DNA from: Bryopsis sp. KO-2023
Taxonomy: Eukaryota > Chlorophyta > Ulvophyceae > Bryopsidales > Bryopsidaceae
DNA: 64,000 bases
Assembly: GCA_030272585.1 (NCBI GenBank)
Contig: BSYQ01000011.1
Location: forward strand, 2,728,001-2,792,000
Reading direction: 5' to 3'
In this document: piece by piece, positions 22,152 to 43,659 of the stretch
Layout: each line of letters begins with the position of its first letter
Position numbering within the stretch: the first letter of the stretch is position 1
Made by a program: the position numbers and the translations under genes
The notes under the pieces: generated by a model
What the model saw: only the letters and a program-made list of their open reading frames with translations
Databases searched by the model: none
Told to the model about the DNA's origin: nothing

Positions 22152-23966
22152 ATGGCTGCCGACACACCCGCCGCAATTATTGCGAGGTTGGAAGCGGAGG
22201 TAGCTCAAAAAGAAGAGGAGCTGCAGCACTTTGTTACGACCGCAGAGGAAGTGCTGCAGAACAATGAGGCCTTAACCCGGCAGCTCTCAGAGTTGAGTGA
22301 CCGGACGAAAGCAGCTGAGGCTGCGAAGGAGGCAGCGGAGAAAGCCAAGGAAAAGGCGGAGGCGGAAAAGAAAGAAGCGGAGGACAAGACTAAGGTCTTG
22401 GAGGAAAAATTGGAAGCCATGAAGCTGAAAAAGCAAAGGTTCCAATCTCACATGATGGCTAACCATCGTGAGAACGACCTCCGCAAACAAGCTCTCGGGG
22501 GGATAGTGGATCGATTTACCGCGGTAGAGGAAACGCTGCAGCAAGCTGTAGCAACCGCCTGGAATGCAGCAGCCAACAACCTTAAGAAGGAATTGGCAGA
22601 ACAAGAGCTGCAGATCGATTTGCTGGGAGAGTCCCTCAGAGACGGCTCTGAAAAATTACAAGTGCAGAGCGAGACAACGGACAAGATGCTGCGTTTGAAC
22701 CCGGCGGTGCCAGCACCACGGGTGCGGGAAGAACTGGATCGCCAAGTCCAAGTTCTGTTGTCAAACGCAACACTTGATCTGGAACCGTCCAAGGACGATG
22801 ATGCGGGAGGCTCAAGCAAGGGCAAGGGGAAAGGGAAAAACAAACGCCCAAGCTCGCCGTGTAGGGATGAAGATCCACACGGAAAGAGAAGGCGAGAGGA
22901 CGGTGACGATGAAGGTGGTGAGCCACCGAGGGATCGTAGGCCTGGAGATGCAGCAAGAGCCAACTTGTTACTCAAGTTAAAGGCTGCCGCAGTAAAAACT
23001 CCAGCACCCTCACAACCAGCACCAACAGTTCAGACACCCGGGGATGAGGCTACCGCAATAGCACCGGGGGAGGACCTCTTCGACATGAGAGAGGAGGAAC
23101 TTTTGGACTTGGATTTTAACGAAGAACTTGACTTCGGTAGTCCACCTCCTAGGCTCGAGGGTCCTAGTTCTGAACTGGAGGACGGGGAAATAAGGGATGA
23201 TGAAGGGCCAAGCCAGGTGACAGAGGTTCAGCGTGCGGTACATCCACCGTTGGAGTTAGCTCCAACAGAAGCAGCACTTCGGGCTTTCCGAGAAAAGGTT
23301 AAGCTTAGAAGGTTAAAGGCGGCTGCTCAGGACAAAGTGGATGCTGCACCCAGCGAAGTGAACCTGTCACGGGAGGATATCGAGGAGGCTTGCAACCCCA
23401 TCACTGCGTCAGAGAAATGGCCGAAGGTCCAATATACTAACCCCAGGGACCGAGCCTTGCAAAATTACCGCGGCAACCGGCACTTTCACGAGTTGCCCAT
23501 GTGCATTTGGTGCGGGAGAAGCCCAATGCAAGCAAGTGCTCAGCGGCTGACGCAGAAGAAGTATTCCGTCCTTCCTTGTGGGTATCACCTTGTGTGTGAT
23601 GCTCACTGGTTGGCATACTCGATGCTGGGGCGCATCGTCACCGCGGTGCAAAAAGTCGCCGAAGTGGACAACAAGTCCATTGCCACCGTCTCCCCATTCT
23701 CTCTACCTGCCCATATGTTGAAGCTGACACGCTCGACGTTCGAAGAAATCCCTCCGTTCCCGGCTGAGCACGAGAAGTTGCCACACTGCCATATGTGTGT
23801 GAAGCGGCAGCTTAAGGTGTCCGGCATCACAAGGGATCTGCCATTCCTTAAGTCCAAGAGGGTGGCTGCCGCATTTGATCCCTGTGTCCGGTATCGTGCA
23901 GTGCAGCAGGCGCATGCGCAGGAGCAGCGTGCTATCCAGCAAGCGCAAGCGCAGGAACAGCGTTAA
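22152..23966 (+). CDS. Element 2 third ORF: coiled coil plus RING-like Cys/His array
   Basis: About 604 codons, starting at the ATG in AACATAATGGC, the first ATG after the TATA-like box. Residues ~1-90 are a strong coiled coil (runs of EAAEKAKEKAEAEKKEAE type). A basic, serine-rich segment (KGKGKGKNKRPSS) that could be a nuclear signal and an acidic middle follow. The last third carries CIWC (23,502), CGYHLVCDAHW, and CHMC (ends 23,798), i.e. C-x2-C...C-x2-H-x2-C-x2-H-W...C-x2-C. That ligand order and spacing recalls RING-type cross-brace fingers with a His in place of one Cys. No env-like signal peptide or membrane span is seen. Function unknown. Confidence 0.85.
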   Translation: MAADTPAAIIARLEAEVAQKEEELQHFVTTAEEVLQNNEALTRQLSELSDRTKAAEAAKEAAEKAKEKAEAEKKEAEDKTKVLEEKLEAMKLKKQRFQSHMMANHRENDLRKQALGGIVDRFTAVEETLQQAVATAWNAAANNLKKELAEQELQIDLLGESLRDGSEKLQVQSETTDKMLRLNPAVPAPRVREELDRQVQVLLSNATLDLEPSKDDDAGGSSKGKGKGKNKRPSSPCRDEDPHGKRRREDGDDEGGEPPRDRRPGDAARANLLLKLKAAAVKTPAPSQPAPTVQTPGDEATAIAPGEDLFDMREEELLDLDFNEELDFGSPPPRLEGPSSELEDGEIRDDEGPSQVTEVQRAVHPPLELAPTEAALRAFREKVKLRRLKAAAQDKVDAAPSEVNLSREDIEEACNPITASEKWPKVQYTNPRDRALQNYRGNRHFHELPMCIWCGRSPMQASAQRLTQKKYSVLPCGYHLVCDAHWLAYSMLGRIVTAVQKVAEVDNKSIATVSPFSLPAHMLKLTRSTFEEIPPFPAEHEKLPHCHMCVKRQLKVSGITRDLPFLKSKRVAAAFDPCVRYRAVQQAHAQEQRAIQQAQAQEQR

Positions 23967-24128
23967 GGAGGAGGGAAAGGAGTTATCGTCGACCAAGTGT
24001 GTGCGTGCAGCAGCTGTCAGAGACGTCAGAGCCAGAGACAGGTCCAAGACAGTTGGGTGTGGGTATGGGAGTGGGTTAGTTTTGTGTTTGTGTTTTTGTG
24101 TTTTGTTTTTCTTTGTGTTTCGGTGTGC

Positions 24129-24159
24129 GTGGGCGCCCACTTTTTGCGGGGGGGGCGTA
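24129..24159 (+). promoter_or_regulatory. Element 2 hairpin and G-run before the 3' LTR (polypurine-tract position)
   Basis: A perfect palindrome GTGGGCGCCCAC (24,129-24,140) is followed by a run of eight G (about 24,148-24,155), ending 4 nt before the LTR. The G-run occupies the place where plus-strand DNA synthesis is primed. Confidence 0.7.
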
Positions 24160-24592
24160 TGTTAGTATTTTCTAGTACTTTAGCGCTGTACGAGGTAGTT
24201 TGGGATAGAGCCGAGGGTGGCTGACGCATGTGGGTTCACGAGTAAGACAGATTAGACCCAGAGTTTGGGGCATGCGTCAGCGTACTACACTTAGGGGTAC
24301 TTAAGAGGCCCACTCGTTGTTTTGACATCTTATTCTAGTTGTAAGAATTCGGGATTCGTGGGATTGGTGTGTTCCCGCTTGTGTGTGTGTTTGTGTGTGT
24401 GTGTGTGTCTAAGTGTTTGCCTGACGCAATCACTTATCCAACCAAGTGCTCTAGTAGCGTTCACAACCGCGCTAGCTAGAGAGTTGTCTAAACCAACAGA
24501 CCCCACAAGAATACTTGCGTTAGCCAGCAAGTTATCACGAATCCAACCAACACAGCCAACCACTATTGCGCCACCCACAAGCTTCACTATCA
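24160..24592 (+). repeat. Element 2 3' LTR
   Basis: 433 bp, the same length as the 5' copy and without a difference that I noticed. Followed directly by the target duplication GTCGC. Confidence 0.95.
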
Positions 24593-25154
24593 GTCGCCAC
24601 CATCGCCGAAGCCGGTCACGATGTTCAATTGCGCTGCGTGCGCGCAAGGGAGGCCATTTCCTCGTCCCGGCCTGGACCGCCCTATGTGCGAGAAGGGGCA
24701 TTTGCTGTGCCTAACGCACAACGTGGGAACAAGGCTGGCGGTCCGAGCAGGGACATTCTTTGCGCGCGGCATAACGCCGACGGTGGCCCAGCTTGTGTCG
24801 GGCAGGGACGACGGCGTGGGCATCATGCCAGTACCAGGGTTTTCCGACCCGCTCACGGTGTGCCCCAATTGCCACAAAGAGGAACTTGGAAAGAGATGGC
24901 CCGGGAAATATAAACAGCAGATCAAGGATTGGACGACGGGCTACTACACGACACTGGGGCTGCCTGTACCGACGACACGAGTGCGAGCCAAGTCCGCGGC
25001 TGCATCAACACCGGTCAGGGGAGCCGACGCCATCGTCATCGAGCCCGCGCATCCACCCATCGTCACAGTATCAGCACCAGCTCCCGTTCCAGACTCAGCC
25101 GACGTCTCGGACGTCAAGGGAGGTCCGATGACGCGTTCGCGTTCGCAGCGCTAA

Positions 25155-25932: not shown

Positions 25933-25935
25933 ACA

Positions 25936-26409
25936 ACGTCCAAGTCCGGTACAACAACGATCCGACGTTACTGTAACGCCAAAGCGTTGTTGTAACGCAG
26001 TACGTTATCAGTAACGTCTACGCCGGCTGCTATAACGTCCGCACCGAGGCAAGACGTTACAACAACGATCGGTTGCGTTACGTGTAACGGTAACACGCTG
26101 CAACAACGGCCAGGTCGGTACAACAACGTAAGGTCCCCAAAACCGAAGGGAACCGAGTGGGATTCGAACACCGTACCGCACGGTGTCGAATCATCTACAC
26201 TGAGCGCTAAGCCAAGTGGACCACAATGATTTTGTGGCTGTTGCGATCATATACCTTAATCTGTTTGTAATTCTGTGAAATTAGGGTATATTATTGCAAC
26301 AACCACAGAATCATCGTGGTCCACTTGGCTTAGCGCTCAGTGTAGATGACTCGACACCGTGCGGTACGGCGATCGAATCCCACTCGGTTCCCTTGGGTTC
26401 TGGGCACCC
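25936..26409. mobile_element. AACAACG/GTAACG-rich tRNA-palindrome repeat, left part
   Basis: Repeated words ACAACG, GTAACG and CGTTAC surround a tRNA-like inverted pair (26,145-26,400). Element 3 is inserted with a TCGGG duplication. The sequence after it (36,748 on, GGTCACTTT) continues the same motif found after the tRNA-like core of the TTACGG MITE (8340-8352). So this belongs to the same class of repeat, although I cannot define its inverted ends or target duplication. Confidence 0.62.
26145..26400. repeat. tRNA-like inverted pair in the AACAACG repeat
   Basis: Arms of about 100 bp, roughly 90% matching when one is reversed, separated by about 65 bp with mirrored ATATACC/GGTATAT motifs. 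Each arm holds a GGCTTAGCGCTCAGTG A-box-like block and a GATTCGAATCCC-type B-box, as in the GATCGG MITEs. Confidence 0.72.
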
Positions 26410-26414: not shown

Positions 26415-26615
26415 TGTTAGGTCCCTGTAGGTTTCAGTGAAGTCGTTGCTGAGACTGGGGTCACACACACTCAAACCAGAGAATTATTTTTCAAAGTGTT
26501 CTCTCTGAACTTAACCCCCTAGAACCCGTACTAACCCGTACTACACACTCGTACTGCAAAATGAGTGCGATCAACGTATCAACTACACTGCAAAATGAGT
26601 GCGATCAACGTATCA
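26415..26615 (-). repeat. Element 3 3' LTR
   Basis: 201 bp, TGTTAGG...GTATCA as read on the plus strand. It holds a tandem duplication of about 30 bp (CTGCAAAATGAGTGCGATC... twice) near one end, present in both LTRs. Confidence 0.95.
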
Positions 26616-26621
26616 ACTACT

Positions 26622-26653
26622 CCCCCCCCCCCCCCCAAAGGGTGTCCACACCC
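26622..26653 (-). promoter_or_regulatory. Element 3 G-run and hairpin before the 3' LTR
   Basis: A run of 15 C on the plus strand (26,622-26,636) is G15 in the element's sense, 6 nt from the LTR. It is preceded in that sense by GGGTGTGGACACCC (26,640-26,653), a hairpin with a 2-nt centre. Element 4 has the identical 14-mer at the same place. Confidence 0.75.
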
Positions 26654-26675
26654 GTAGAAGAACCCAAAAAGAAAG

Positions 26676-26725
26676 AAAAATAAAAGAAAAGAAAAGAAAA
26701 GAAAAGAAAAGAAAAGAAAAGAAAA
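26676..26725. repeat. AAAAG microsatellite in element 3
   Basis: About ten tandem AAAAG units on the plus strand (a CTTTT pyrimidine tract in the element's sense), between the third ORF stop and the G-run. Confidence 0.85.
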
Positions 26726-26785
26726 CCCCCAAGGAAAAACTGTCTCTGTCCGGCTCTGACTCTCTGGCTCTGGCTCCGCGCGCTC

Positions 26786-28666
26786 TCACTCTGTCTCCGA
26801 GTCCAAGCCCTCGAGATCCCACATCGTTCGTAGGATGTATGTTAGCCGGGATCCAAGCTCCTTGACACCGGTTTTCGAAGGGAAGGCTGCGGATTTGACC
26901 CGACACACCTGACATGGTAAGGTGAGCTGATCAGTGGTGTCCGGGGATGGAAGCGATGGGAGCGGAAGAAAATCCTCCGCACGTTTCCCGAGGCGAAGAT
27001 GCTCCGCGGTCATATCGAGCGGCCGGATAGTTTTATCCGCGAGCCACCGATTGATGACCCGATCCATTACATGATGATGGGGCCAGTGTGTGGGACAAAC
27101 GTAGTGTGCCCCACAACTGGTTTTTACCCCGACACCATGTTGCGTTCCCGCGCAGTAATAGCACTTCGTTCCCGCGAGTGCTGGATCGTGCGTGCCTTTG
27201 ATCTTCTTGAGCGCTGCACGCAACTCTTTCGCGTCCTTCGCGCGTGTGCGTTTCTTCCCCCGCTTGGTGCTTTTCTCCGCGCCCTTTTTTTCCGCTTCCT
27301 TCACTTTTTCCGCATCCGCCTGAGTCGACGGCTCCCCTTTCTTGGTTTCGGCGGTTGTCTTTTTCTCCGCGTCCGCCTTCTTTTGTTTTCCCGCGTCCGC
27401 GTGTGTTTTTCCCGCGTCCGCCTTTTGTTTTTCCGCAGCCGCCTTTTTCTCCGCGTGTGTTTTCTCCGCGTCCGCCTTTTGTTTTTCCGCGGCCGCCTTT
27501 TTCTCCGCGGCTGCTTTCTTTTTCTCCGCATCCGCCTCCGCGAGTGCTTTGAGCATTGCTGCTTTGACGAGTGCTTTTGTTTGTGCGTCCTCCGCGCTCA
27601 GCGGTGGTTTTGAACCTGTCGGTTCTTCCGCTATGACGTCTTCATTGTCGTCATCGTCAAGGGAACTCTGGGGTGGTTTCGCCAATTGCTTTGAGATATT
27701 CTCCGCTGCCCCGTTTATCCGGCTCAACCAGTCGTTCACTTGGTCCAAATTGTGCGCTTTCGTAAGGTCCACGTTCGTGATGGTGATCTCCTTGACCTTA
27801 TGCATGTCGACCTGATCTTTTATCCGGCCGTCTCGCACCAACTGCGCCTGCGCCTTCGCGGTGTCCAGCCGTACTCCCACGAGTCCGTGTGAGAAGCTCG
27901 CGAGTGACTGCGGGATGTCCATGAGGTTGGCCCGAAGCCGGTTGACCTCAACTTTGGACGCGACGAGTTCTGACATCAGCACACGGGCGGTCGTGCTGCT
28001 GCAGAAGTCGTCTCCCTTTTCCGCCTTGGCGAGAGCGGCTTTTGTGGCTGCCAACTCTTTTTGGACCGTGACGAGGTTGCGGTAGCGTTTCTCCGCCTCA
28101 CTGATGAGCTGCTTATTCTCCTTGTGATACCATTCGGTATCCGCTTGAGCTTTGGTGGCTGTTTTCCGGGATAGGGCCAGATCGGTGGTCAGCTGGGTAA
28201 TTTCCTTGGCTTTCGCGGAAATTTCTTGATTCCGCGCGGAAATTACTTGATCCTTTGCGGAATTTTCTTCCTCTAGCGCGGATAACTCTCTTTTGATAGT
28301 CTTGAGTTCCGCTTCCGCACCGCGGGCTTTCACTTGAGCATCACTCAACTGCTGTTGAAGAGCCCGGTATCGGTTGGTCCAATCCGCCTCCAGCTTAGTT
28401 TTTTCCGCCGCCCTTTCCTCTTTTGCTTCCCGGAGTTCCGCCGCCAGCTCACAGATTTCCGCCTCCTGCTCATCCCTTTTTGTCACACCCTCCTGAAGCT
28501 TCTTGTGTAATTTTTCGTAATCCGCCGCCACATTTGCATGTGATTCCACCGCCTCAGTTCCAGATTCTAAGGCTTCCGCGAGCTCCGTTTCCAAGGCCTC
28601 TGCCTTTGTTTTCCACTCATCCCTCTGCTGACGGAGTCGCTCCAAATGCTCGGATGTTCCAGACAT
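26786..28666 (-). CDS. Element 3 third ORF: coiled coil plus RING-like Cys/His array
   Basis: 626 codons from an ATG at 28,664-28,666. Residues ~1-230 are a nearly continuous coiled coil (LERLRQQRDEWKTKAEALETEL...). Then comes a Lys/Ala/Glu repeat region (AEKKKAAAEKKAAAEKQKADAEK type, about 380-470), a basic stretch (KRGKKRTRAK), and the array CYYC...CGAHYVCPTHW...CQVC (27,163 down to 26,903). The array matches the other third ORFs in ligand order although the rest has diverged. The third ORF lies after pol, where plant retroviruses-to-be carry env, but no signal peptide or membrane helix is visible. Confidence 0.85.
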   Translation of the reverse strand: MSGTSEHLERLRQQRDEWKTKAEALETELAEALESGTEAVESHANVAADYEKLHKKLQEGVTKRDEQEAEICELAAELREAKEERAAEKTKLEADWTNRYRALQQQLSDAQVKARGAEAELKTIKRELSALEEENSAKDQVISARNQEISAKAKEITQLTTDLALSRKTATKAQADTEWYHKENKQLISEAEKRYRNLVTVQKELAATKAALAKAEKGDDFCSSTTARVLMSELVASKVEVNRLRANLMDIPQSLASFSHGLVGVRLDTAKAQAQLVRDGRIKDQVDMHKVKEITITNVDLTKAHNLDQVNDWLSRINGAAENISKQLAKPPQSSLDDDDNEDVIAEEPTGSKPPLSAEDAQTKALVKAAMLKALAEADAEKKKAAAEKKAAAEKQKADAEKTHAEKKAAAEKQKADAGKTHADAGKQKKADAEKKTTAETKKGEPSTQADAEKVKEAEKKGAEKSTKRGKKRTRAKDAKELRAALKKIKGTHDPALAGTKCYYCAGTQHGVGVKTSCGAHYVCPTHWPHHHVMDRVINRWLADKTIRPLDMTAEHLRLGKRAEDFLPLPSLPSPDTTDQLTLPCQVCRVKSAAFPSKTGVKELGSRLTYILRTMWDLEGLDSETE

Positions 28667-28987
28667 TTTTATGCAAATGCGCTTAATGTTTTGCTCTGGT
28701 GGCGGTTGCTTCTGAAGGTTCAGTGCGCTCGGCGTAAACTTTTGACGAAATAGGGCTGGAGGGTTGCAGCCTAGCTAGTTTATACAAGTGATAGAGTCAC
28801 TCACTTGTCACTGATGGAAGACTTCCTCTATTGAGTGTCGTCTCATCCAAGGTTCTAGCCCGTTTTGATATTACCCTCGCTATCTTGACTCAGCTCTCTA
28901 TAGCTCGCTCTTAGATGTATTTGATTATGGGTGAACTGATACCAACACATCAACCATCGTTCCCTTCCCCATATCAACCTGTATCAT
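28667..28987 (-). promoter_or_regulatory. Element 3 spacer between pol and third ORF, with TATAAA
   Basis: 320 bp without a frame. TATAAA lies on the minus strand at 28,778-28,783, about 112 bp before the third ORF's ATG, mirroring the layout in element 2. Confidence 0.4.
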
Positions 28988-31900
28988 CTAAAGAGGTTGT
29001 TTCCGCCGCCTTGTCCGCCTTTCTTCCCGCTTAGAGCGGATTTCCTCTTTGGTCGGCAAGCGCGTGCGGTTTCTGAGATACTCTGCCAAGATATCGCTGG
29101 CATTGGCCAGGTGGGCTTCTGGCTCCCAGGTGGCTTCCATCAAATCATAGCCCTTCCACAGAATCAAGTACTCCCGACGGTTGGGTGTGCCTCGATCCCG
29201 CAGAATACGCTCGACCTCATATTCAATGGCGCCATCCACCAACTCCCCTTCGGGAGGTTCCACCTCCCGCTCATCATCTTCTGACAAGCGGTTGTATGCC
29301 TTCAGCTTGGAGACATGGAAGGTAGAATGAATAGTCCAATGGGGTGGTAGTTGTAGGCGATAAGCGACTGTGGATATCGCTTTGTCCACTTTGAATGGCC
29401 CGACAAACCTCCGGCGGATTTTTGGTGGGATCTTTTGCAAGGATTGCAGCGGAATAAATGTACTCCGCACCAAAACTTCATCCCCTTCTTTGAAGATTAC
29501 TTCCCGCCGCCGTTTGTTCGCTTGGACACACATCCGCTCTTGTGCGGTTGCATACTGCTGCTTTGCCTGCTGCAGTTGCTCGTCCATTCGTTTCACCATT
29601 TCGGTTGCCATTTCGGACTCTTCTTTCGCCGTTAACTTTTTCTGCACGGTAATTTGTCCCATATGCTGCCCATACAACAAGTGTGCTGGGGCATAGCCGG
29701 TTGACACATTGCGGGAGTTGTTGGCAGCAAATTCCGCTGTCGCCAAGAAATCAACCCAGCGGTCTGGATACCGCTCCACATAAGGCCGCAAAAAGTCTTC
29801 CAACACCCGAATAGTAACCTCTGACTGCCCATCTGTTTGTGGGTGGTAGGCTGTGCTCATTCGGAGTTGGGTTCCCAGAAGTGAAAATAACGACCGCCAG
29901 AAGGAACTTGTGAATCTGGGGTCTCGATCGGAAATTATCACTTTGGGGAGGCCGTAGTGTTTGTATATTTTGTCCACAAACAACTTAGCATATTCCGGGG
30001 CGGTTATTTCCTTGGTGCAGGGTGCAAAGCGAACGTATTTGGTTAACCGATCAACAAATACCGCGATGGCGGTGAACCCACGTGACTTTGGTAAATCAGT
30101 CACGAGGTCAGTGGTGATCTGTTCCCACTTTGTTGTCGGTATTGGGAGTGGATGCAGAAGCCCTTTCTGCTTCGTCGTATCAGCTTTTGTCCGCTGACAG
30201 ACAGGACATGTCCGCACGTATGCTTGGACATCCTTTCCAACTCCTTTCCACCAGTAGTATCGCTGTAGCACATCCGATGTCCGGGCGGCACCTGCGTGTC
30301 CAGCACTCGGAACATCATGGAACTCCCCCATAACCTTTTTCCGGTATCCATTTGGAACCACTAGTACTTTGTCTGAGGTGGGAGTTGCTTGATAATACAA
30401 CCAGCCATCCTCGAACGAAAGTTTCGTGGGTTTACCCTCTTGGATTTTCGCGACTTCCGCTTGCAGTTTTGGATCTGCTGCAATAGCGGTCTTCCATGCA
30501 TCCGCTTCATCCACCACCCAGGCGGACAAAGCATGAATTTGATCCTGTGAATCAGGAAGGCTTCGGGATAACGCATCCGCCAGTACATTGGCTTTACCAG
30601 GCACATAGACGATTTTTGGATCTATGGAATCAAAATACCCTGACGTATACCATCGGGATTGTGTCCGCGACATTTTAGCTTGGGTCATGAAGTGGGTTAT
30701 CGGCTGATGGTCTGTCAGAACCGTAACCTCCCCAGGCGCTCCTTCGAGGTAATGTCGCCATTGGCTGAGCGCATATGCTACAGCCCCCAGCTCCCGCTCA
30801 TATGCGGAATATCGTGTCTCAGCTGGTTTTAATCGTCTTGAAAGGTAGGCTATTGGCTGTAGCCCCTTTCCATGGTCCTGACACAGAACTGCTCCATATG
30901 CAGTTCCTGATGCGTCCGTTATTACGGTGTACCTAAGAAGCGGATCGGGTAGGAGAAGTATGGGGGTGCGGGTGATCTTTTGCTTGAGTTTGCTGAAGGC
31001 TTCACGCTGAATAGGCCCCCATGTCCACACATGATTCTTTTTGATCAGATCATGTAGGGGTCCTGCAATCCGCGCAAACTCTGGTATAAACTTACGATAG
31101 TAAGATACCATGCCCAGAAAACTTCGCACATCCCCAACTGAGCTCAACTCCTTCCATTCTTGAATAGCCCGCACTTTATCACTCATTGGTTGCAGGCCTT
31201 TCCCTGACAAATGATATCCCAGATAATCGGTCTCGCTGACCCCCACTTCACACTTGCTCGCTTTCGCGTAGAGCTTGTGTTTGTGTAACCGCTCGAATAC
31301 CTGTTTCAAATGATCGACATGTTCTTCCACTGAATTGGAAAACACCAGAATGTCGTCAATGAAAACAACCACAAAGTGGTCCAAAAACTCCCCCAACAAA
31401 TCCTGCACCATAGTTTGAAACTGGGCCGGACAGTTGGACATTCCGAAGGGACAAACGAGGAACTCGAAATGCCCGTATCGTGTGCGGAATGCAGTTTTTG
31501 GGGTATCCTTTGGCCGGACTGGAAATTGCCAGTAGCCCGAGCGGAGGTCGATCTTGGTGTAGATCTTTGCTTTAGCGAGCCGGTCCATTAACTCTTCGGG
31601 GAGCGGAAGTGGATAGCGGTTTTTGATGGTGTAGTGGTTGATCCATCTGTAATCAACACACATCCGCAATCCGCCGTCTTTCTTAGGGACAAAGAGTATG
31701 GGGGCTCCCCAGGGACTCTCTGACGGCCTAATCTTCCGTTGCTCGAGGAGATAATCCACTTGTGTCCGAACTTCATCCAATTCAGCCGGAGAAAGTTTGT
31801 ACAGGGGACGGTGGATTGGGCTCATACTCTCATCCTCAAGGTCGATCCTAAATTCATGACCCTTGCGGACGGGAGGTATGCCAGGTGGGAGATCTTTTGG

Positions 31901-36039: not shown

Positions 36040-36527
36040 GGTGGATGTCTTGATTCGTCGGCGGTAGAATCACGTGTCCGTTTGGTGGATTCCGTTGGCG
36101 GATAATCCACGTGACTAATTGGTCACTCTTTGTCAGCGGTTTCTGGCAGCGGTTTCTGGCACGTAATTTCTGGCGGAAACGTATTCGTCCGCAGAAACGT
36201 CCGCTGACAGACTCGTTTTGTCCGCTCTGCGGTAACCGCGTGCAGTGTCGACAACTCTCCGACAAACGGAAGTACTACTACGCCGTGCTGTGGTCGTAGC
36301 GTCCAAGGATCTATAGATCCTGTGATTTTGGGAGGGATGATCGAGCGCAGCAGCGTGCGTTCTCTTTCGTCCAGCGTTTGGTTGGTGCGCAGCAACACGA
36401 AGTAGGTTCCAGACACGAGGGGAAACCTTCTTCGACCTAGCCGACCCTGATCTTTTGCACCTCGACTGCAAAATCTCCTGTCGATCTCTTCCACTAAGTA
36501 GACTCGACTTGCAGGTAGGGTGCTTCG

Positions 36528-36539
36528 GCTCCGAAACCA
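36528..36539 (-). promoter_or_regulatory. Element 3 primer-binding site
   Basis: TGGTTTCGGAGC on the minus strand, 2 nt inside the 5' LTR, identical to the sites of elements 2 and 4. Confidence 0.82.
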
Positions 36540-36541
36540 GT

Positions 36542-36742
36542 TGTTAGGTCCCTGTAGGTTTTAGTGAAGTCGTTGCTGAGACTGGGGTCACACACACTCA
36601 AACCAGAGAATTATTTTTCAAAGTGTTCTCTCTGAACTTAACCCCCTAGAACCCGTACTAACCCGTACTACACACTCGTACTGCAAAATGAGTGCGATCA
36701 ACGTATCAACTACACTGCAAAATGAGTGCGATCAACGTATCA
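36542..36742 (-). repeat. Element 3 5' LTR
   Basis: 201 bp, matching the other LTR except for one C/T difference that I could find. Confidence 0.95.
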
Positions 36743-36747
36743 TCGGG

Positions 36748-37045
36748 GGTCACTTTGTACGTCATCCACATGACGTTACTGCAACGCCATTACGTTGTTG
36801 TAACGAACATCGTTACTCGAACCGTCTAGGGCGGTACAACAACGCCAGTAACACGTTGCAACAACGACCCTTGAACGGGTGCCGGTCATTGGCGACAACG
36901 TATTGTACCAACCCAGTACCGATGTTGTACCGTAACGTGAAAATATCCAATACCGTACCGTACCGTAACGACCCCTTACGGTACGGTACGACACGTTACG
37001 TACCGTACCGTACCGTAAGGGGTCGTTACGGTACAGCCAAGCTCT
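36748..37045. mobile_element. AACAACG/GTTACGG-rich repeat, right part
   Basis: Continues the repeat interrupted by element 3. The words shift from GTTGTAACG/ACAACG to CGTACCGTAACG and end in palindromic GTACCGTAC-type strings. It meets the second family A LINE at about 37,046, which may have truncated it. Confidence 0.55.
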
Positions 37046-38527
37046 GGGCGCAGGTCAGCCACATTGTTTTGGGCTTGGCGATCATTGTGGCGCTCATCTT
37101 TGCGGACGACACGCTGGTGCCGTGCTCGTCGGTGGAGGATGTCTCGGCTGTTGGCGACGTGCTGGGGCAGTATGAGCGCGACTGGGGAGTGAAGACGAAT
37201 CTGGAGAAGACGGAAGGGATGGTAGTGAATGCACGGGGGCTCTCGACTGTGTCTCTCAACGGAGTGGATGTGGAGTTGCAATCTACGATGAAATATCTGG
37301 GCGTTTTGTTCAAGGATGGTCCAGGTAACGTGAACGTGTTTGGGGTTCATATCGACAGAACTCTGCAAAACGGACCGGCGGCGGTGGGGCGTTTGTTGGC
37401 TTGATCCGGGGATCTGGGGCTTCGCGATCCGAAGACGCTTCTGGCTTTGTTTCGCATGTATGTTTTGGGGAAGGTTCAGTATGCGGCGCCGGTGTGGTGC
37501 TTTTTCTTGACTCGGGCGCACAAGGATGCGTTCAACGGTTTGCAGGTTCGTTTTCTGAAGCGGGTGTTGCGGCTGCCCGTGCGGACTCTTCGGAACGTTG
37601 TGTATTTGGAGATGGGCGCTCTGCCGATCCTTTACTATTTCAACAAGAACGCGGTGCGGTTCTGGAATCGTATGATGACTCTTCCTGTGGACCATCCTTC
37701 TAGCGACCGATTCTTGTGTTTGGTTTTATGTTTTGACGTTTGGGCTCTTTCTTGCGTTTCGATTGGGGATTTCTGGTTTCAGAGATGTTGGAACTTTTTT
37801 GTTTTAGGAGATTTTGTTCATTTAGGAGTTGATTACATTCAGAGGCTTTTGCCTTGCTTCGAACGTTGGGACACGATTCACTCATGTATGTCGTTGCAAC
37901 AGGGCGGTTTGCCCTACGCAACTTGTAATCCTTGTTTCCTTGTTTCCTCGCCAGTTGATCGTTTGGCTTCGATCGGAGGCCACGGTCTCTCAGCGCTCTT
38001 GGTGGGTACTGTTCAAGGACATGGTGTGTCGATTCGCTCCTGGATTCGATGGTTCTGCTGAGGTGGACCTTGCGTCGTGGACCGCGGCGTATAAGGCGGA
38101 CATCGTGGCTCGTCTTCGTTCGGGACATCCTCGTATCGTGGCGTTTTACAACGTGTTTAAGCCGGTGTTTGGATACTCGAGAGCGCTGTCTTCTTTCGAA
38201 GACATCGGGCTGCGGACGGTGTGGGTGCGTTTTTGTGCGCGTTTGCATGGTTTGGAGATCGATGTGGCGGATCTGCAACGGAGGGACGTGCCTTTGCACG
38301 AGCGTTTCTGTCCTTATTGTTTGTCGCAAGGCAACAGAACGGCTGAGAACGAGCGGCATGTTCTTTTCTTTTGTCCGTTGTATTCTGGTTTGCGTGCGGG
38401 ATCGGTGGTGGCTGAATCGGGGTGTTCGTTGCATCGTTTATTCAATTTTCCGGGTCAGTATCGGGTGGCCGTTTACCTTCGTCGGGCGTTGGATTTTCGC
38501 TCTCAGTGGCTTGAGGCTCAGCCGTGA
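37046..38527 (+). pseudogene. LINE A ORF remnant, copy 2
   Basis: Encodes part of the RT palm (LIFADDTLVPCSS), thumb (MKYLGVLFKDG), connection and C-terminal C-x2-C-x12-H-x4-C knuckle (CPYC...H-VLFF-C). It is 5'-truncated, has a premature TGA at 37,402 and a 246-bp insertion at 37,704-37,949 with a few target bases lost. It cannot make a protein. Confidence 0.85.
37704..37949 (+). mobile_element. LINE family B 3' end in LINE A copy 2
   Basis: About 246 bp of LINE B 3' UTR, ending in the terminal hairpin (about 37,890-37,919) and CCTTGTTT tail units. It replaces a few bases of the LINE A frame (compare the sequence near 1290-1310) and has no clear target duplication. Confidence 0.85.
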
Positions 38528-38528
38528 C

Positions 38529-39007
38529 CAGTCATGGGCTGCACAGGACAGACCCCTGTCCTGTGCATCGCACAGGACAGGGTTCTGTGCGGGTTCTGTG
38601 CACCCTGTGCTGTCCTGTCCTGTTTTTCAAAAATCCAGGACAGACGTGCACAGGGTCAGATCTGTGCTGCACAGGCGCACAGACTGCACAGCACAGCACA
38701 GAATCTGCACAGACTCTGCACAGACTCTGCACAGACTCTGCACAGACTCTGCACAGACTCTGCACAGACTCTGCACAGACTCTGCACAGAATTTGCACAG
38801 ACTCTGCACAGACTCTGCACAGAATTTGCACAGACTCTGCACAGAACTGCACAGACTCTGCACAGAAACTGCACAGACCCTGCACAGACCCGGTCTGTGC
38901 TGTGCTGTGCAGGTCTGTGCACCTGTGCAGCACAGGTCCAACCCTGTGCACAGAACAGACAGTCTGTTCTGTCCTGTCCTTTGCACAGGGGTCTCAGCCC
39001 ATGTCTG
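38529..39007. mobile_element. hAT-type MITE, GCACAG-rich
   Basis: 479 bp with imperfect inverted ends CAGTCATGGGCTG and CAGCCCATGTCTG, flanked by exact copies of GCCGTGAC (38,521-38,528 and 39,008-39,015). LINE A copy 1 has this 8-mer once at the same place, which proves the insertion. The interior is nearly all CACAG/CTGTG words, including about ten tandem 11-bp units CTGCACAGACT (about 38,704-38,870), with inverted CTGTCCTGTGC / GCACAGGACAG blocks near each end. It has no tRNA-like core. Open frames across it in every phase are an effect of the repeat. Confidence 0.94.
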
Positions 39008-39330
39008 GCCGTGACGTGGTTTTTATTCGTTTGTTTTGTTTTGTGTTTGTTTGTTTGATTTCGTTTGTTGGTCGTTTGTGGTGGGCGTTTGACAGTAGTT
39101 TTCGCTCTATTTTGGTTGTTGCTTGGTGTTCCAGGTTTCTTTTTCTTGGGAACGTTTTTGGCAATACTTTCTGATACATTAATAACCTAGTGATGGGTCT
39201 CTCGTTGATTGTATTGGGGTTTTATTGCAGACTTCATCTTCTGTGGACTTTTGGACATGGCAGAGACATTGTATGTGGTTGCAACAGGGCGGATTTGCCC
39301 TTCGCAACATGTAATTTCTGTTTCCGGTTT

Positions 39331-39523
39331 CTGTGACAAGTGTTGATAGGTTGTATCAGGGGACTACTTAAAGGGCCTTCGCGCCCACTATTGTAATTCA
39401 TTTTTCACGCGAACAAAAGTGCCAGTGCGTATCACCAGTGGTCTCCACCACTGTTTCAACCCTGCTGAGGTCATGTTTTGGTATGTTCCAAACATACACC
39501 TTGTTTAATACAACACCTGTTGC
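39331..39523. other. Unassigned sequence between LINE A and MITE copy 2
   Basis: About 190 bp without a frame. It contains a small perfect hairpin CAGTGGT...ACCACTG (about 39,439-39,456). It may be part of an older repeat; nothing more can be supported. Confidence 0.4.
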
Positions 39524-40536
39524 CATACTATGGACGTGATCGGAAATGATCGGCCGTCCATTTTCGATGTCAGGACAGGTCATTTCACTGATCTGACCTG
39601 ACACGATCTCGTTCCACATGATTCTAAAAATGATCGGTTTTTTTTTTGTTTTTTTTACCGATCATGATCGATGATCGTGATCGTGATCGGCCGATTGAAA
39701 CCTGATCGATGATCGTGATCGGGCTTCCGATTATCGATCTGATCGGCAGCTCCGATCACGACCACGATCACGATCAAGCTCGCGACCTGTCGGCACGTGA
39801 TCGGTTGATCAAGATCGGTGAAACGCCGATTGATCGGCCGTTGATCCGATCAGCTCCGACCATGATCGGCCATGGATCAATTGATCGGAATTTAATTTAA
39901 GATTCCGATCATGATCGGTCAATTGATCGTTCTTACGAAAATGCCCACAAGTCACCACCCGAAGGTGTTTCTGGAGGTGTAAGGATTCGAACCTAAAACC
40001 TCACTAACTAGAATCAAGCACATCATTGCTTGGACCACTCTGAGCTACGGTTGGAGTGTGCTCCGTGTCATTATATACCTGATCAGTCAGTCCGACAAAC
40101 TGAGGTATATAATAACACGGATGACCCAATGATCGTGGCTCAGGGTGGTCCAAGCGTCGATTTGCTTGATTCTAGTCAGTGAGGTCCTAGGTTCGAATCC
40201 TTACACCTTTAGAAATACCTTCGGGTGGTGACTTGTGGGCATTTTCGTAAGACCGATCAATTGACCGATCAATTGATCATGGGACCGATCATGATCGGAA
40301 TCAATTGATCAAGATACCGATCTGATCGGCAGCTCCGATCCCGATCTCAATCTCGATCAAGCGTCGCACCCTGTCGGCAACTGATCGGCAGTTTTTGATC
40401 GGCCGACCACGATCCGACCGATCAAAAACTGCCGATCAGGTGGGGCGACCGATCTGATCGATGATCGGCCCTGGCAGGTTTGATCGGCGACCGATCAGAT
40501 CGGAGATCGGCCGATCCCGATTTGATCAATAGTATG
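39524..40536. mobile_element. hAT-type MITE, GATCGG-rich, copy 2
   Basis: 1,013 bp with ends CATACTATGGAC (39,524) and TCAATAGTATG (to 40,536), flanked by exact 8-bp copies CCTGTTGC (39,516-39,523 and 40,537-40,544). It shares with copy 1 the inverted ends, a T-run after ATGATCGG (about 39,634-39,657), the tRNA-like inverted pair (about 39,955-40,235) and dense GATCGG/CCGATC words on both sides. No coding capacity. The two copies have diverged, so the family has moved more than once. Confidence 0.92.
39955..40235. repeat. tRNA-like inverted pair in MITE copy 2
   Basis: Two arms with a TGGCTCAGGGTGGTCC A-box-like block and a GGTTCGAATCC B-box, arranged head to head around mirrored CATTATATAC / GTATATAATA motifs. 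It corresponds position for position to the pair in copy 1. Confidence 0.75.
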
Positions 40537-40544
40537 CCTGTTGC

Positions 40545-41448
40545 AGGTCTTTCAGTTCTATGTGACCCTTATCTCCTGGCGTACCTGGCCTTTTTTCCCC
40601 TCCATCCACTTCACGATCACGATGGCTCTCATGTCTGACAGTTTGACCAGCTCCAACTGCACAACACCAAAGATACAAAAGAGGAGCCGTTGATACTTTG
40701 CTTTGATACAAACCCTTGTATCATTGCATTGTACGGAGGGAGCCCCCGTTGAGGACCCCGTGGAGAAATCCTCGTGGTGGCGCCTCGACAGCCTCGGTGT
40801 CGCTCGCGCATGGAGGAACCTTGTATCCCAAGATGCATGGGGCTTCCTATCCGCTTACGAGACACGATACCAGGAGTTAGCATCGGAGGGTAGGACGCCA
40901 CCATCCGCCCGATAGATGGCAACGGTAGTGGCGAAAGGCATCTCGCTTGCTGAGGGGGATGGCAAGTGGGAGATCTCCGCCCTACTCTCCAACGCCATCA
41001 CAACAGGCACCACCCCCTCCGTCGTGGTAAGAAAACCCAACCAAGATATAGTTGTGTTTTCAAATTAGACTAAGTTTGTGTGTGTTGTGTGGAAAGATCA
41101 TCTCACCGTCTCTCCGCGCATGCCACATCCCACGGAGTCGACCTCACACCCACCGACACGTACGCATCGGCGATGGCTAAGTTATACACAGCTATCGCTA
41201 ACATCCCCCGCACCCTCTCCTTCACAAACCTCATCCACCACCCTCCGTCCACCACCATCGCCACCACCACTACCGTCACTGAGGCCGACTCCCGTGTCAT
41301 CGATGCGATGCTTGCCTTCACCCCCACACCAACCCCCACGATTTCAGCACCGCTTCCGACGATGCCTTCCCCCAACATAATTGGCGCACCATCCGGCTCC
41401 GGTAATCTCCCAGTCACGGCTCACCTACCAACACTCCTCTCCCCAACC
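40545..41448 (+). other. Possible host or unknown coding sequence, split by element 4
   Basis: A plus-strand frame encodes SSWWRLDSLGVARAWRNL... to a TAG at about 40,915. In the same frame an ATG at 40,918 begins MATVVAKGISLAEGDG... and ends at a good donor (GTAAGA, 41,030). After a candidate acceptor near 41,095 a frame continues with HATSHGVDLTPTDTYASAM and a Pro/Thr-rich stretch up to the CCAAT target of element 4. Phases of the candidate intron do not agree, and I recognise no family. It may be a decayed gene or part of another repeat. Confidence 0.3.
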
Positions 41449-41453
41449 CCAAT

Positions 41454-41487
41454 TGATAAGGGGGTCTAGGACCCCGAGACACAAGCA

Positions 41488-41522
<35 letters not shown>

Positions 41523-41626
41523 TCACTGGGAAGATTAATTTTTACAGGAGGGCCCCCTGCCCTATAAACCCTGTCGTACATCCCATTGTACTACACAATA
41601 CCCCTAAACCCGAGTTACTACTATCA
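41454..41626 (-). repeat. Element 4 3' LTR
   Basis: 173 bp, TGATAAGG...CTATCA, with a CA/GA microsatellite of about 40 bp inside. Very short for a 10-kb Ty3 element. Confidence 0.95.
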
Positions 41627-41632
41627 ATTTGT

Positions 41633-41662
41633 CCCCCCCCCCACGAGAGGGTGTCCACACCC
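41633..41662 (-). promoter_or_regulatory. Element 4 G-run and hairpin before the 3' LTR
   Basis: Ten C on the plus strand (41,633-41,642), i.e. a G-run in the element's sense, with GGGTGTGGACACCC beside it (41,649-41,662), the same hairpin as in element 3. Confidence 0.75.
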
Positions 41663-41910
41663 GTCACAACCCTGGAAAGAAAGAAAGAAAAAGGTCGAAC
41701 GAGAAGAAAAAGAAACCCCAAACAAACCCACAACAAAAACCCCAACTAAAGGTCAGACTAAACCCCAAACAAACCGATGAAAAATCCCAAACCAAACCCA
41801 TGCTCAACCCCACAGAAAAACCCCGTTCTGTCTTGAGGCTTGGTCTCTGGCTTGGACGGTAGCTTGGTCTCCGGCTTGGTCTGCTTTTCGTTGTCACTCC
41901 AGAACCCATC

Positions 41911-43659
41911 TCAGCCGCCAGCTGGTTGTTCAGCTGGTTCATCGACTGGCTCTGCCACTAAGTCGATCGGAGGCTCGTCCTCTTCCACATCCAAAGGAGG
42001 GAAATCCTCATCCAAAGGTGGAGGAAGAGGTCCCAAAGACGAGGGCTCCGAGGATGGACTCCTGCTGGACACGGAAGGACTTTTTCCTTCGTCCTGTTCT
42101 GGATCCTGTTCTCCTTTTGTTTCTGGTTCGGGTGTTCTCTCTTTTTCCTGCTTCTCATACTCCTCCGCCCACTTTTTCACCAACGGACCCAAGCGCTTCA
42201 GGGCAAGGCCTTTCGGAAAGCCCATGTCCCTTCTCAAGCACTGATAGCACTCGGTGAGAGTCTGGGTCGTGGGTGGAGCCTGAAGGAGTGGCTGGAAGTC
42301 TGGCTCCCGCATGTCCAAATGTAGGTCCTTCAGCTGAACCTGTGGCGGGTCGATTCGCTGCTCCTGCCACACCCCGTATAAGCGCACGAGGATAATCATG
42401 AGGTTCCAGTGGGTTCGGCACACCGTGTGGCTCGTGCATGTGGTGATCACGTAGCTATCCGCCAGCGCCGGCGGCGAATAGCACCACAAGCAGATCGGTG
42501 GCTTTTCCCCACGCCTGTCCTTGAACCTCTTGGACATGTCGGCGAGCGCCTCCTCTTCCTCTCTCTCCTTCCTTTTCTTGGGCGCCGACTTTTCGTCGGT
42601 CTTTCCACCGGTCTGTCCCCCGGTCAGATCGCGGATTCTCCTTGGTTGTGGCTCTGAGATCATATCGTCGGCGACGTCGGGAATTTCAAAGTGCCCCGGT
42701 GCACGACTTCTGATTCTCTCCAGCGTTCTGTCCACCTGCGTATAGTCATACCCGGCTAGCCGGTGGTTAACCGGAACGTTCCCTTTGCCGTAGTAGACAG
42801 GCTCCTCTCCGTCTCTGATCGCAGCAGCAGCTCCAGCACCCTGCGTGATGATGTCGTCCATCGTCGCCCGACAAAGGTTTTCCACATAGTCCCCAAGGCG
42901 TGCGGGAACGCTGTGGAGCAACCGGCTCATCAACCCGGACTGTGCCTCAGACGAGTACACAGCCGTTTGCCAGGCCGACCTTTCGTCTGTGGACGTCAGG
43001 TGCGGCTGCTGTTTCGTCAACTGCGACTGCAGCTTTTTCTGCGTCTGGTTCGCAGTGTCGAGTTCCTTTTGAAGCTGCCTCAGCTCCTGTTCGGCTGTTC
43101 CCCTCGCTTGTTGAGCGATTTTTAGATCGTGTTCAAGTTGGCTAACTTGATTGCAGAGTCGTTGAGCTGCACCCTCAAACTTTTTCAAGTGCTTCTCTGC
43201 CTGATCCGCCCGCGCGCGTTGTGCGTCGCGTTCTGCACGGAGTTCCAACACATCGTCTTGTAACCGTTGACACCTAGCTTGGAGAGTAGCTGGGTCGGCG
43301 TCCCGGTCGAGTGTTTTTCCTGTTCTGGAACTAGGTTTTTCCGGCAGTTCTGTCGGTGGACGGATCACGATCTTTGAGGTGCCTTTCAGCAACGATGTTT
43401 CGAAGTTCCGAAGTTTCGAAAGCACCGAAGGAGCTGGGAGAGTTTTCATGAGTTTCGCCTTAGGAGGTGGTGTGATAAGTGGTTTGGGTTCCCCTCTGGG
43501 TGGGCAAGCGTCGGCGAGAGTTCCACTTTTTCCTTTTCCGCCTTTCTCGCCGCCACTGCCTTTCGTTTTTCCGCTGCCACCCAATTGTTTTCCACTCGAC
43601 TCCTTTCCTTCAACCGCCTTATCACCACTGCGCCACATGATCGGGCTGTGCTTTGGCAT
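41911..43659 (-). CDS. Element 4 third ORF: coiled coil plus RING-like Cys/His array
   Basis: 582 codons from ATG at 43,657-43,659. A basic Gly/Lys/Ser-rich start is followed by a coiled coil of ~120 residues (LQARCQRLQDDVLELRAERD...), a short basic segment, and the array CLWC...CTSHTVCRTHW...CYQC (42,492 down to 42,238). An acidic Glu/Pro/Ser-rich tail ends it. The HTVCRTHW core lines up with HYVCPTHW and HLVCDAHW of elements 3 and 2. Function unknown. Confidence 0.85.
   Translation of the reverse strand: MPKHSPIMWRSGDKAVEGKESSGKQLGGSGKTKGSGGEKGGKGKSGTLADACPPRGEPKPLITPPPKAKLMKTLPAPSVLSKLRNFETSLLKGTSKIVIRPPTELPEKPSSRTGKTLDRDADPATLQARCQRLQDDVLELRAERDAQRARADQAEKHLKKFEGAAQRLCNQVSQLEHDLKIAQQARGTAEQELRQLQKELDTANQTQKKLQSQLTKQQPHLTSTDERSAWQTAVYSSEAQSGLMSRLLHSVPARLGDYVENLCRATMDDIITQGAGAAAAIRDGEEPVYYGKGNVPVNHRLAGYDYTQVDRTLERIRSRAPGHFEIPDVADDMISEPQPRRIRDLTGGQTGGKTDEKSAPKKRKEREEEEALADMSKRFKDRRGEKPPICLWCYSPPALADSYVITTCTSHTVCRTHWNLMIILVRLYGVWQEQRIDPPQVQLKDLHLDMREPDFQPLLQAPPTTQTLTECYQCLRRDMGFPKGLALKRLGPLVKKWAEEYEKQEKERTPEPETKGEQDPEQDEGKSPSVSSRSPSSEPSSLGPLPPPLDEDFPPLDVEEDEPPIDLVAEPVDEPAEQPAGG

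Follow-up and report, generated by a model that had tools for sequence, protein, structure and literature searches.

Ty3 chromoviruses are usually described as consisting of gag and pol, and a locus of the green alga Bryopsis sp. KO-2023 raises the question of what a third gene might contribute to such elements. The window, i.e. the whole stretch of DNA analysed, comprises 64,000 nt (assembly GCA_030272585.1, contig BSYQ01000011.1, positions 2,728,001–2,792,000, forward strand) and contains four elements, designated 1 to 4, each of them with a third open reading frame (ORF3), whole or broken, between pol and the 3′ LTR, as the original prediction had it (Table 1).

Chromoviral elements with a third gene

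The assignment of the four elements to the chromoviruses was borne out by a chromodomain scoring above the Pfam cut-off in every pol (for element 4, Chromo 2.4e-12 and rve 5.6e-8 in the C-terminal frame). Element 2, with a GTCGC target duplication, interrupts ORF3 of element 1; the latter was confirmed as a split gene, although it lies partly outside the interval originally assigned to the ORF3s (22152–43659), and near-identical copies without the interruption are present elsewhere in the genome. Because pol of element 4 is split between two frames and insertions have broken element 1, the description of some elements as open copies is valid for ORF3 but not for the whole elements. The gags are very long (882–988 aa), with the Pfam gag domain confined to the C-terminal third; by eye, the remainder looks partly helical.

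Table 1. Features of elements 1 to 4, in coordinates of the window.
Feature	Position	Strand	Remarks
Element 1, integrase end of pol	12246–13466	+	chromodomain; Chromo 4.4e-14, rve 2.8e-8
Element 1, structured RNA	13475–13607	+	8 nt past pol stop; row used in model building
Element 1, ORF3, N-terminal part	13754–14477	+	interrupted there by insertion of element 2
Element 1, ORF3, C-terminal part with array	24621–25154	+	frame resumes beyond element 2
Element 2, 5′ LTR	14478–14910	+	identical to 24160–24592
Element 2, gag	15058–17706	+	882 aa; Retrotrans_gag 4.8e-11
Element 2, pol	17961–21701	+	PR-RT-RH-IN-chromodomain; RVT_1 3.3e-33, rve 1.3e-10, Chromo 4e-11
Element 2, structured RNA	21700–21787	+	match begins inside pol stop codon
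Element 2, ORF3	22152–23966	+	604 aa; N-terminal coiled coil, basic linker, array at residues 451–549
Element 2, 3′ LTR	24160–24592	+	identical to 14478–14910
Element 3, 3′ LTR	26415–26615	-	99.5 % to 36542–36742; target duplication TCGGG
Element 3, ORF3	26786–28666	-	626 aa
Element 3, structured RNA	28916–28982	-	directly after pol stop; weak match
Element 3, pol	28988–33097	-	chromodomain; RVT_1 1.7e-34, Chromo 3.5e-12
Element 3, gag	33073–36039	-	988 aa; Retrotrans_gag 2e-14
Element 3, 5′ LTR	36542–36742	-	pairs with 26415–26615
Element 4, 3′ LTR	41449–41626	-	99.4 % to 51911–52088; outer end approximate
Element 4, ORF3	41911–43659	-	582 aa
Element 4, structured RNA	43894–43962	-	ca. 320 nt past pol stop; 28.5 bits, E 1.4e-5 for 64 kb
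Element 4, pol	44280–48398	-	two frames, 44280–45860 and 45945–48398
Element 4, gag	48347–51244	-	965 aa; Retrotrans_gag 9e-13
Element 4, 5′ LTR	51911–52088	-	pairs with 41449–41626

Architecture of the ORF3 protein

The C-terminal part of ORF3 contains the array C-x2-C-x12-21-C-x2/3-H-x2-C-x2-H-x47-60-C-x2-C, found as predicted in all four elements and in none of 20,000 shuffles of each (three whole ORF3s and the C-terminal piece from element 1). Single-protein searches identified the array in ten more divergent representatives from the same genome, and each of the 14 divergent ORF3 representatives retains all eight ligands in the order CC-CH-CH-CC, their array domains being only 14–24 % identical to that of element 2. 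The C-x3-H variant occurs in six of the 14 domains, and the second and last gaps, originally given as 11–21 and about 45–60 residues, measured 12–21 and 47–60. Profile-profile comparisons joined the element-1 type to elements 3 and 4 (P 2.1e-5, probability 77 %, with the third ligand one column off), and these to element 2 (P 4.8e-6, probability 86 %).

An N-terminal coiled coil had been proposed for every ORF3. Heptad periodicity was above that of shuffled sequences (p ≤ 0.002) in 10 of 13 proteins, using shuffles of the best stretch only, which biases the test toward a coiled coil, whereas the other three (the element 1 piece, L066 and L067) had no scorable stretch. Basic clusters of the NLS type are present in the middle of 11 of the 13 proteins; K[KR]x[KR] clusters are missing from two and are elsewhere just mildly above shuffled expectation. 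An AlphaFold2 model from four alignment rows was too poor for a fold call (mean pLDDT 52.9), neither supporting nor contradicting a two-zinc cross-brace, so the case for zinc binding is that of the ligand pattern, from which we infer that the eight Cys/His residues may bind two zincs.

Copies, selection and mosaicism of ORF3

All 73 genomic copies of the element 2 ORF3 family that were scored, from 301 candidates, lack stop codons. For ORF3 of element 3 there are 30 or more open copies of full length, at 94–100 % identity, plus a subfamily at 37–47 %. That of element 4 has at least 40 open and (nearly) full-length copies at 94–100 %, and the C-terminal part from element 1 gave 118 matches across the genome, which fall into several divergent groups. 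The dN/dS ratio of ORF3 was 0.05–0.26 in the nine usable pairs out of 17 (of the remainder, one was identical, five were saturated and two, at 0.33–0.35, had dS ≥ 2), and pN/pS was 0.14 over 29 of the 30 element 2 ORF3 copies sampled; pol is under stronger constraint still. With ratios far below 1 and every ligand retained, the array is under constraint, as anticipated. ORF3 is a genuine accessory gene under selection, belonging to a lineage of green-algal chromoviruses, which agrees with the lineage-specific accessory protein envisaged originally.

Additionally, ORF3 behaves as an exchangeable mosaic cassette, in that ORF3s of 49 % identity can follow near-identical pol ends. Such diversity among elements whose pol ends are nearly the same suggests a fast-changing partner as well, either a host factor or rival elements. 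The mosaic nature of ORF3 and the structured RNA found after pol both go beyond the original prediction.

A structured RNA between pol and ORF3

A covarying structured RNA follows pol in all four elements, although it was detected only weakly in elements 2 and 3. Its layout is a stem, a GANGG loop, a second stem and GGA, with a GGWATGGGAC hairpin in one group. Both sides changed in 27 of 29 pairs, on nine distinct rows, and 60 double-sided cells were observed, versus 17.5 in shuffled and at most 13 in slid controls, counts that are biased in favour of the structure because it was derived from the same alignment. With filters off, the match in element 2 scored 19.1 bits (E 1.6e-4 for 2.6 kb; absent from the default search) and that in element 3 scored 15.6 bits (E 0.0013 for 2.7 kb; missed by the default model search and by the descriptor search), its relative L076 reaching 15.9 bits. 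Under default filters the RNA model had no match in 7 of 24 loci. Rfam 15 gave no match at E ≤ 1 in ten loci, nor in the window at the gathering score.

The genome has 112 occurrences of the hairpin motif and none of its reversed control. An element-1-type array was situated 0.9–2.0 kb downstream, on the same strand, at 64 of the 100 motif sites among the matches listed, with no downstream array at the other 36 and none upstream or on the opposite strand at any of the 100. No upstream motif was found for 41 of the 104 arrays on contigs C1–C11. At loci L058 and L059 the RNA goes with pol while ORF3 differs, indicating that the RNA is not passed on together with ORF3 as a single block; an allele-specific protein–RNA pair is thus unsupported. 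As for signals for ORF3 expression, TATA enrichment was not significant (Fisher p 0.085), and splice signals were absent in the one gag-to-gap deletion copy (L044).

Relationship of the ORF3 domain to RING fingers

No Pfam or NCBIfam model matched the ORF3 domain above its cut-off, no LIM model was among the Pfam matches, and a sequence search of the PDB gave no meaningful match. Relatives of the array, which the original prediction proposed to seek in other genomes, amount outside this genome, among the public proteins searched, to one, which looks like a host contaminant.

The proposal of a RING-type ubiquitin ligase is only partly supported. The domain resembles RING fingers (zf-RING_5, PF14634; Prok-RING_4, PF14447) in how its first six ligands are ordered and, roughly, spaced, and RING models matched three of the 14 domains in register (E 0.025–0.22), over at most those six ligands and below cut-offs (best scores of 14.9 bits against 27, and 14.5 against 27.9). 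However, ligand 6 is His instead of Cys in all 14 domains, and the last loop is longer. Ile, Leu or Val directly precedes Cys2 in two domains and Arg or Lys directly follows Cys8 in one (K/R is found one residue further on in 12), so that the residues which we take to be the E2 contact and the linchpin of RING E3s are mostly missing; Pro follows the seventh ligand in ten. A nucleic-acid-binding oligomer, the other option originally put forward, fits at least as well because of the conserved RNA beside ORF3.

Possible role of the ORF3 protein

We tentatively favour, with a probability of about 0.42, the reading that ORF3 encodes a zinc-binding, oligomeric protein that regulates the RNA of its own element. 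Candidate counterparts of the parts of a Rev or CERV system are a heptad coiled coil (10/13) as putative self-association domain, a Cys/His domain (14/14) as putative nucleic-acid-binding domain and a conserved RNA adjoining ORF3 as putative cis element. The protein would oligomerise through its coiled coil and may act in the nucleus on the RNA of its element, in export, packaging or translation, with the intergenic RNA as its candidate binding site. Its role would be analogous to that of CERV for Cer1, or to that of Rev, which serves HIV as RNA export protein. The intergenic RNA can be likened, by description, to the RRE and the CTE, in that a conserved stem with an internal loop is carried by an element with a gene for a probably oligomeric protein. 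A fuller version, taken with all its conditions, is unlikely: a Rev/RRE-like pair in LTR retrotransposons of the plant lineage, in which an ORF3 protein with two zincs, oligomeric and from a new domain family, would recognise a new intergenic RNA for export or packaging, and elements would exchange the ORF3 gene as a diversity cassette under pressure exerted by the host or rival elements.

CERV of Cer1, from Caenorhabditis elegans, is like ORF3 an extra protein besides gag and pol. The available text of PMC10309623 gives it a potential leucine zipper, a candidate NLS and a Cys-rich region, perhaps a C4 finger, required for export of the genomic RNA. By the same description it has a short Cys loop, a G domain and a spliced mRNA, whereas ORF3 has eight CC-CH-CH-CC ligands in its C-terminal part and no signs of splicing. 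Among plant LTR retrotransposons, the additional ORFs (those of Retand and Grande and the env-like ones) share with ORF3 the slot between pol and the 3′ LTR and retention in many copies; in the available parts of PMC7264820 and PMC11963269 the sense ones are env-like, those of Retand and Grande are antisense, and a protein with coiled coil and Cys/His array is not described among them. Chlamyvir and other green-algal chromoviruses have chromodomain and hosts in common with our elements, but the available text of PMC3350952 describes no ORF3 of this type, its sole ORF3 being that of SM1-Galahad from Selaginella, which encodes a chromodomain.

Alternatively, ORF3 might be a structural or targeting protein serving the particle or integration, its coiled coil assembling with the N-terminal part of gag and its zinc domain binding chromatin or capsid, which we consider possible but doubtful. 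The long gags, partly helical outside the Pfam domain, are in keeping with this, and the ligand order is compatible with a sequential two-finger layout as in LIM domains, which have CxxC, four ligands mostly two apart, and CxxC. Nevertheless, the ligand identities differ from those of LIM, the last loop has two to three times the LIM length, and C-x3-H, which LIM spacing does not allow, occurs in six of the 14 domains; besides, pol already carries a chromodomain. A variant RING ubiquitin ligase that would recruit an E2 and mark a host restriction factor, dimerising through the coiled coil as in TRIM, seems quite unlikely. Ligand order, most gaps, the Pro after ligand 7 and the in-register matches would fit such a ligase, and mosaic diversity would suit an arms race, but the invariant His at ligand 6, the last loop of 47–60 residues, the scarcity of E2-contact and linchpin residues and the database results argue against it.

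It is scarcely credible that ORF3 is a captured fragment of a host gene with no function at the element level; its rapid divergence relative to pol would agree with this, but the ligands all kept in 14 divergent representatives and the scores of open copies speak against it, and dN/dS well below 1 contradicts it. Very improbable, too, is an env-like protein for cell-to-cell spread, comparable to other sense additional ORFs after pol: ORF3 occupies the appropriate slot, and such plant ORFs include env-like ones (available text of PMC7264820), yet it is charged and of low complexity, with a coiled coil and a Cys/His array, and by eye neither a signal peptide nor a long hydrophobic stretch is seen in ORF3 of the elements.

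A whole set of chromoviruses in one alga retains a third gene, whose domain falls below every Pfam and NCBIfam cut-off, and many of these elements also keep a structured RNA without an Rfam match. Young, high-copy elements with many divergent alleles provide a natural experiment on what LTR elements need beyond gag and pol, candidate needs being RNA export, protein targeting and host escape.

Elements and insertions in the window

The window (C11:2728001-2792000, in a genome of 91.1 Mb and 28 contigs) holds four chromoviral LTR elements, with a chromodomain at the end of pol in 4/4. Elements 2, 3 and 4 are young insertions; perfect 5-bp target duplications flank elements 2 and 3, that of element 4 is probably CCAAT, and the pol of element 4 is held in two reading frames. 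Element 1 is older: its pol is interrupted by an element-2-family LTR of solo type (10694-11136), and its ORF3, the third ORF, after pol, by element 2 itself.

Coordinates in the window of elements 2-4 and of the intergenic gaps that contain the structured RNA
Feature	Coordinates	Strand	Observation
Element 2	14478-24592		LTR pair 100% identical
Element 3	26415-36742	minus	LTR pair 99.5% identical
Element 4	about 41449-52088	minus	LTR pair 99.4% identical
pol-ORF3 gap, element 1	13464-13756		covarying structured RNA
pol-ORF3 gap, element 2	21700-22151		structured RNA
pol-ORF3 gap, element 3	28667-28987		structured RNA, weak match
pol-ORF3 gap, element 4	43660-44279		structured RNA

Beside element 3 lies a 277-bp inverted repeat (26132-26408) with arms about 87% alike, near whose ends there is tRNA-like text (GATTCGAAC / CGAATCCC); ARAGORN found no tRNA anywhere in the window. 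Regions 1-6600 and 36700-40500 contain several inverted repeats together with nested fragments of reverse transcriptase that look non-LTR in type, all of which recur between the two regions at 65-99% identity, and 38646-38951 is a tandem, self-complementary repeat of the TCTGCACAG type.

A conserved Cys/His array in ORF3

The original prediction of a conserved Cys/His array in ORF3 of four chromoviruses was borne out, since 4/4 elements have the array, against 0 in 20,000 shuffles made of each protein or piece. Each of 14 representatives retains the full set of eight ligands, with the spacing C-x2-C-x12-21-C-x2/3-H-x2-C-x2-H-x47-60-C-x2-C, a K/R two residues past the last Cys in 12/14 domains and a P after the seventh ligand in 10/14. 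Identity of the other domains to that of element 2 is 14-24%. Profile comparisons gave P 2.1e-5 (probability 77%, with the third ligand one column off) for the element-1 type versus elements 3/4, and P 4.8e-6 (probability 86%) for elements 3/4 versus element 2; these scores, moderate and not overwhelming, join the domain groups.

Copies of ORF3 in the genome

All of the 73 scored copies of the element-2 family ORF3 (301 candidates) are free of stops, and those of elements 3 and 4 have at least 30 and at least 40 open copies, respectively, full-length or nearly so, together with fragments and some stop-bearing copies. The C-terminal part of element 1 ORF3 retrieved 118 genomic matches, mostly 29-52% identical and some with stops; L067, a locus with distant kin of element 1, retrieved 85, largely the same set. 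Among 22 loci around element-1-type or element-3-type ORF3 matches (L051-L072), a chromoviral pol end, 54-100% identical to that of element 1, lies just upstream on the same strand in 16. The other six initially lacked a pol end; one of them, L069, does follow a pol (L076), and L060, of the L060/L061 group, has no pol within 1.2 kb upstream (stretch L075). Where an LTR end directly abuts the ORF3 region, as at L025 and L027, the likely cause is a nested insertion or a tandem arrangement of units.

Starting from reverse transcriptase, one of the best 150 of 1978 RVT_1 places precedes ORF3 among the matches listed, a count that carries little weight because there are at least as many ORF3 copies again as a capped listing shows or fewer. 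These best 150 places belong mostly to other families, with pol frames of 1387, 1395, 1483, 1701 and 1781 aa in many copies. No recognisable pol is present in either of the stretches L077 and L078, which hence are of no use as controls lacking ORF3. Locus L080 (C8:2257000-2259100) holds an ORF3 remnant that keeps N- and C-terminal stretches and misses the array, as if internally deleted.

With regard to expression, the enrichment of TATA-like boxes expected of an internal ORF3 promoter was not significant. Locus L044 (C1:9652965-9657710) is a copy of element 4 missing pol, with gag fused to the pol-ORF3 gap and 99.7-99.9% identity to element 4 on either side of the joint. It was rejected as a spliced retrocopy because there is no GT..AG at the joint, which therefore points to an ordinary deletion or recombination.

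Selection and mosaic structure

ORF3 proved to be under constraint, as had been proposed for its array, although less so than the pol ends. Over 17 ORF3 pairs, several sharing a member and hence not independent, dN/dS was 0.05-0.26 across ORF3 in the nine with usable synonymous distance, and 0.03-0.13 across the array (eight pairs; one had no changes there); of the remaining pairs, one was identical, five were saturated and two, with dS of at least 2, gave 0.33-0.35. Within the element-2 family, synonymous changes outnumbered non-synonymous ones by 112 to 52 (pN/pS 0.14; 0.10 for residues 424-583) across 29 of 30 copies, which were taken as the best-scoring ones and are thus biased towards intact copies; the thirtieth, L031, was left out because its locus contains a partial neighbouring copy. 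In the pol ends, dN was zero in 5/6 of the closest pairs, and purifying constraint is stronger there than on ORF3.

Synonymous distances of ORF3 and of the pol ends disagree. At loci L058 and L059 the pol ends share 98% identity (dS 0.016) and the RNAs diverge by about 1%, whereas the ORF3s are 49% identical with saturated dS; between element 3 and L069/L076 the pol ends are 89% identical (302 codons, dS 0.75) and the ORF3s 41%. In L054, L055 and L056, pol dS of 0.013-0.03 compares with ORF3 dS of 0.20-0.42, and ORF3 contains islands with 5-23% nucleotide divergence between flanks at about 1%, mostly N-terminal and extending into the array in L056. Among pairs with pol dS below 0.1, whose pol ends span just 71-112 codons, ORF3 was discordant in 5/6 and concordant in L062/L063. 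Close copies of the element-2 family showed no divergent island in ORF3, with about 2% divergence throughout; some loci have unrelated flanks, and these account for at least part of the higher divergence upstream of ORF3. Exchange of ORF3 by template switching would be the natural reading of these comparisons, and the low dN/dS across discordant ORF3s makes them look like old alleles and not the product of fresh positive selection.

A structured RNA between pol and ORF3

The gaps of ten element-1-type copies align across about 140 nt. Their shared structure consists of an outer stem, then, on one side, GANGG (mostly GAUGG), a stem of 7 bp, GGA and, innermost, a domain bearing a hairpin loop of the GGWATGGGAC type. 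Both sides changed in 27/29 base pairs (nine distinct rows), with 60 double-changed cells versus 17.5 shuffled and at most 13 slid, and covariation of 0.682 versus 0.262; the structure was derived from the very alignment used for these counts, a procedure biased in its favour. A covariance model (R1) built from the ten rows, element 1 among them, matches copies outside the training set (L059, 120.6 bits; L063, 119.1 bits; L064, 80.5 bits). With default filters it matches 17/24 loci, and gave no match in L009, L039, L060, L061, L068, L069 and L072, some of these stretches being too short. Across the 64 kb of the window, R1 recovered element 4 at 28.5 bits (E 1.4e-5) besides element 1, which is one of its training rows. 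Unfiltered searches added a match at the pol stop of element 2 (19.1 bits; E 1.6e-4 over 2.6 kb) and a weak one in element 3 (15.6 bits; E 0.0013 over 2.7 kb); L076, a relative of element 3, scored 15.9 bits. All E-values are rough. Weak second matches inside the ORF3s of L058 (E 0.028) and L070 (E 0.017) are taken as chance. No Rfam family matches the RNA.

Genome-wide, the hairpin motif GGCYGGWATGGGACRG has 112 occurrences, versus 0 for the reversed motif. An element-1-type array lies 0.9-2.0 kb downstream on the same strand at 64 of the 100 motif sites listed, both position controls giving 0 among these 100, and the motif is upstream of 63/104 arrays on contigs C1-C11. Four of the 36 listed sites without an array were inspected: two hold broken ORF3 remnants and two do not. 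A simple descriptor of the RNA found 8 sites in the window versus about 1.2 expected; three coincide with the sites of elements 1, 2 and 4 and two with copies of a single further repeat, whereas the site of element 3 escaped it.

Relatives outside this genome

A protein homology search with the L054 domain gave one match among 973 candidates, and with the element 2 domain none among 224; the same search with pol gave 7815 among 8000 scored. ORF3 diverges too fast for word-based search, so few outside matches are not proof of absence elsewhere. Three of the pol matches listed, 73-76% identical, are from short contigs, and no relative appeared in viral contigs searched with element 2 pol or in genome contigs searched with the L054 domain. 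Among public proteins, P0002 alone comes close to an ORF3 (96%); it carries the label Parasphingorhabdus, and two of the pol matches listed (65 and 58%) bear the MAG names Pars2KO and Marn2KO. KO-suffixed bacterial MAGs, including Parasphingorhabdus and Marinobacter, come from cultures of the marine green alga Bryopsis sp. KO-2023 (GCA_030272585.1; PMC12509668), which is probably the host. Records P0002, P0022 and P0036 appear to be bacterial records contaminated with retrotransposon contigs of the host alga. Separately, the light-harvesting family PF00504 has 107 genomic matches, counted exon by exon, and the one that was translated looks like a green-type LHC, which places the host among the green algae or their relatives.

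Among the top papers listed in the open-access literature, no title or abstract opening describes such a chromoviral ORF; the literature consulted includes parts of PMC3350952, PMC6338049, PMC10309623, PMC11963269 and PMC7264820.

Possible function of ORF3

Readings weighed for ORF3 include a RING-type ubiquitin ligase and a regulator of the element's own RNA. Profile searches matched RING below threshold only, the best NCBIfam match to the ORF3 domain had E 0.072, and a sequence search of solved structures returned no meaningful match to ORF3. RING activity requires residues contacting E2 and ubiquitin; by the usual rules, these residues are mostly missing in the ORF3 domains, and we regard a ubiquitin ligase as improbable. 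AlphaFold2, run with the four window domains, gave a mean pLDDT of 52.9; helices start close to ligand 5 and around ligands 7-8, a pattern that does not separate cross-braced from sequential zinc sites.

ORF3 combines a coiled coil, which likely oligomerises, with basic clusters and the Cys/His domain, and its element also carries a conserved RNA. CERV, a protein that Cer1 encodes in addition and that is needed for export of Cer1 genomic RNA, has a Cys-rich region and what may be a leucine zipper (PMC10309623). The two proteins resemble each other in their described anatomy (coil or zipper, Cys-rich part). Swapping affects ORF3 but leaves the RNA with pol, which counts against a tight protein-RNA pair. 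As a regulator of the element's own RNA, ORF3 may be a counterpart of CERV, by working analogy as distinct from homology.
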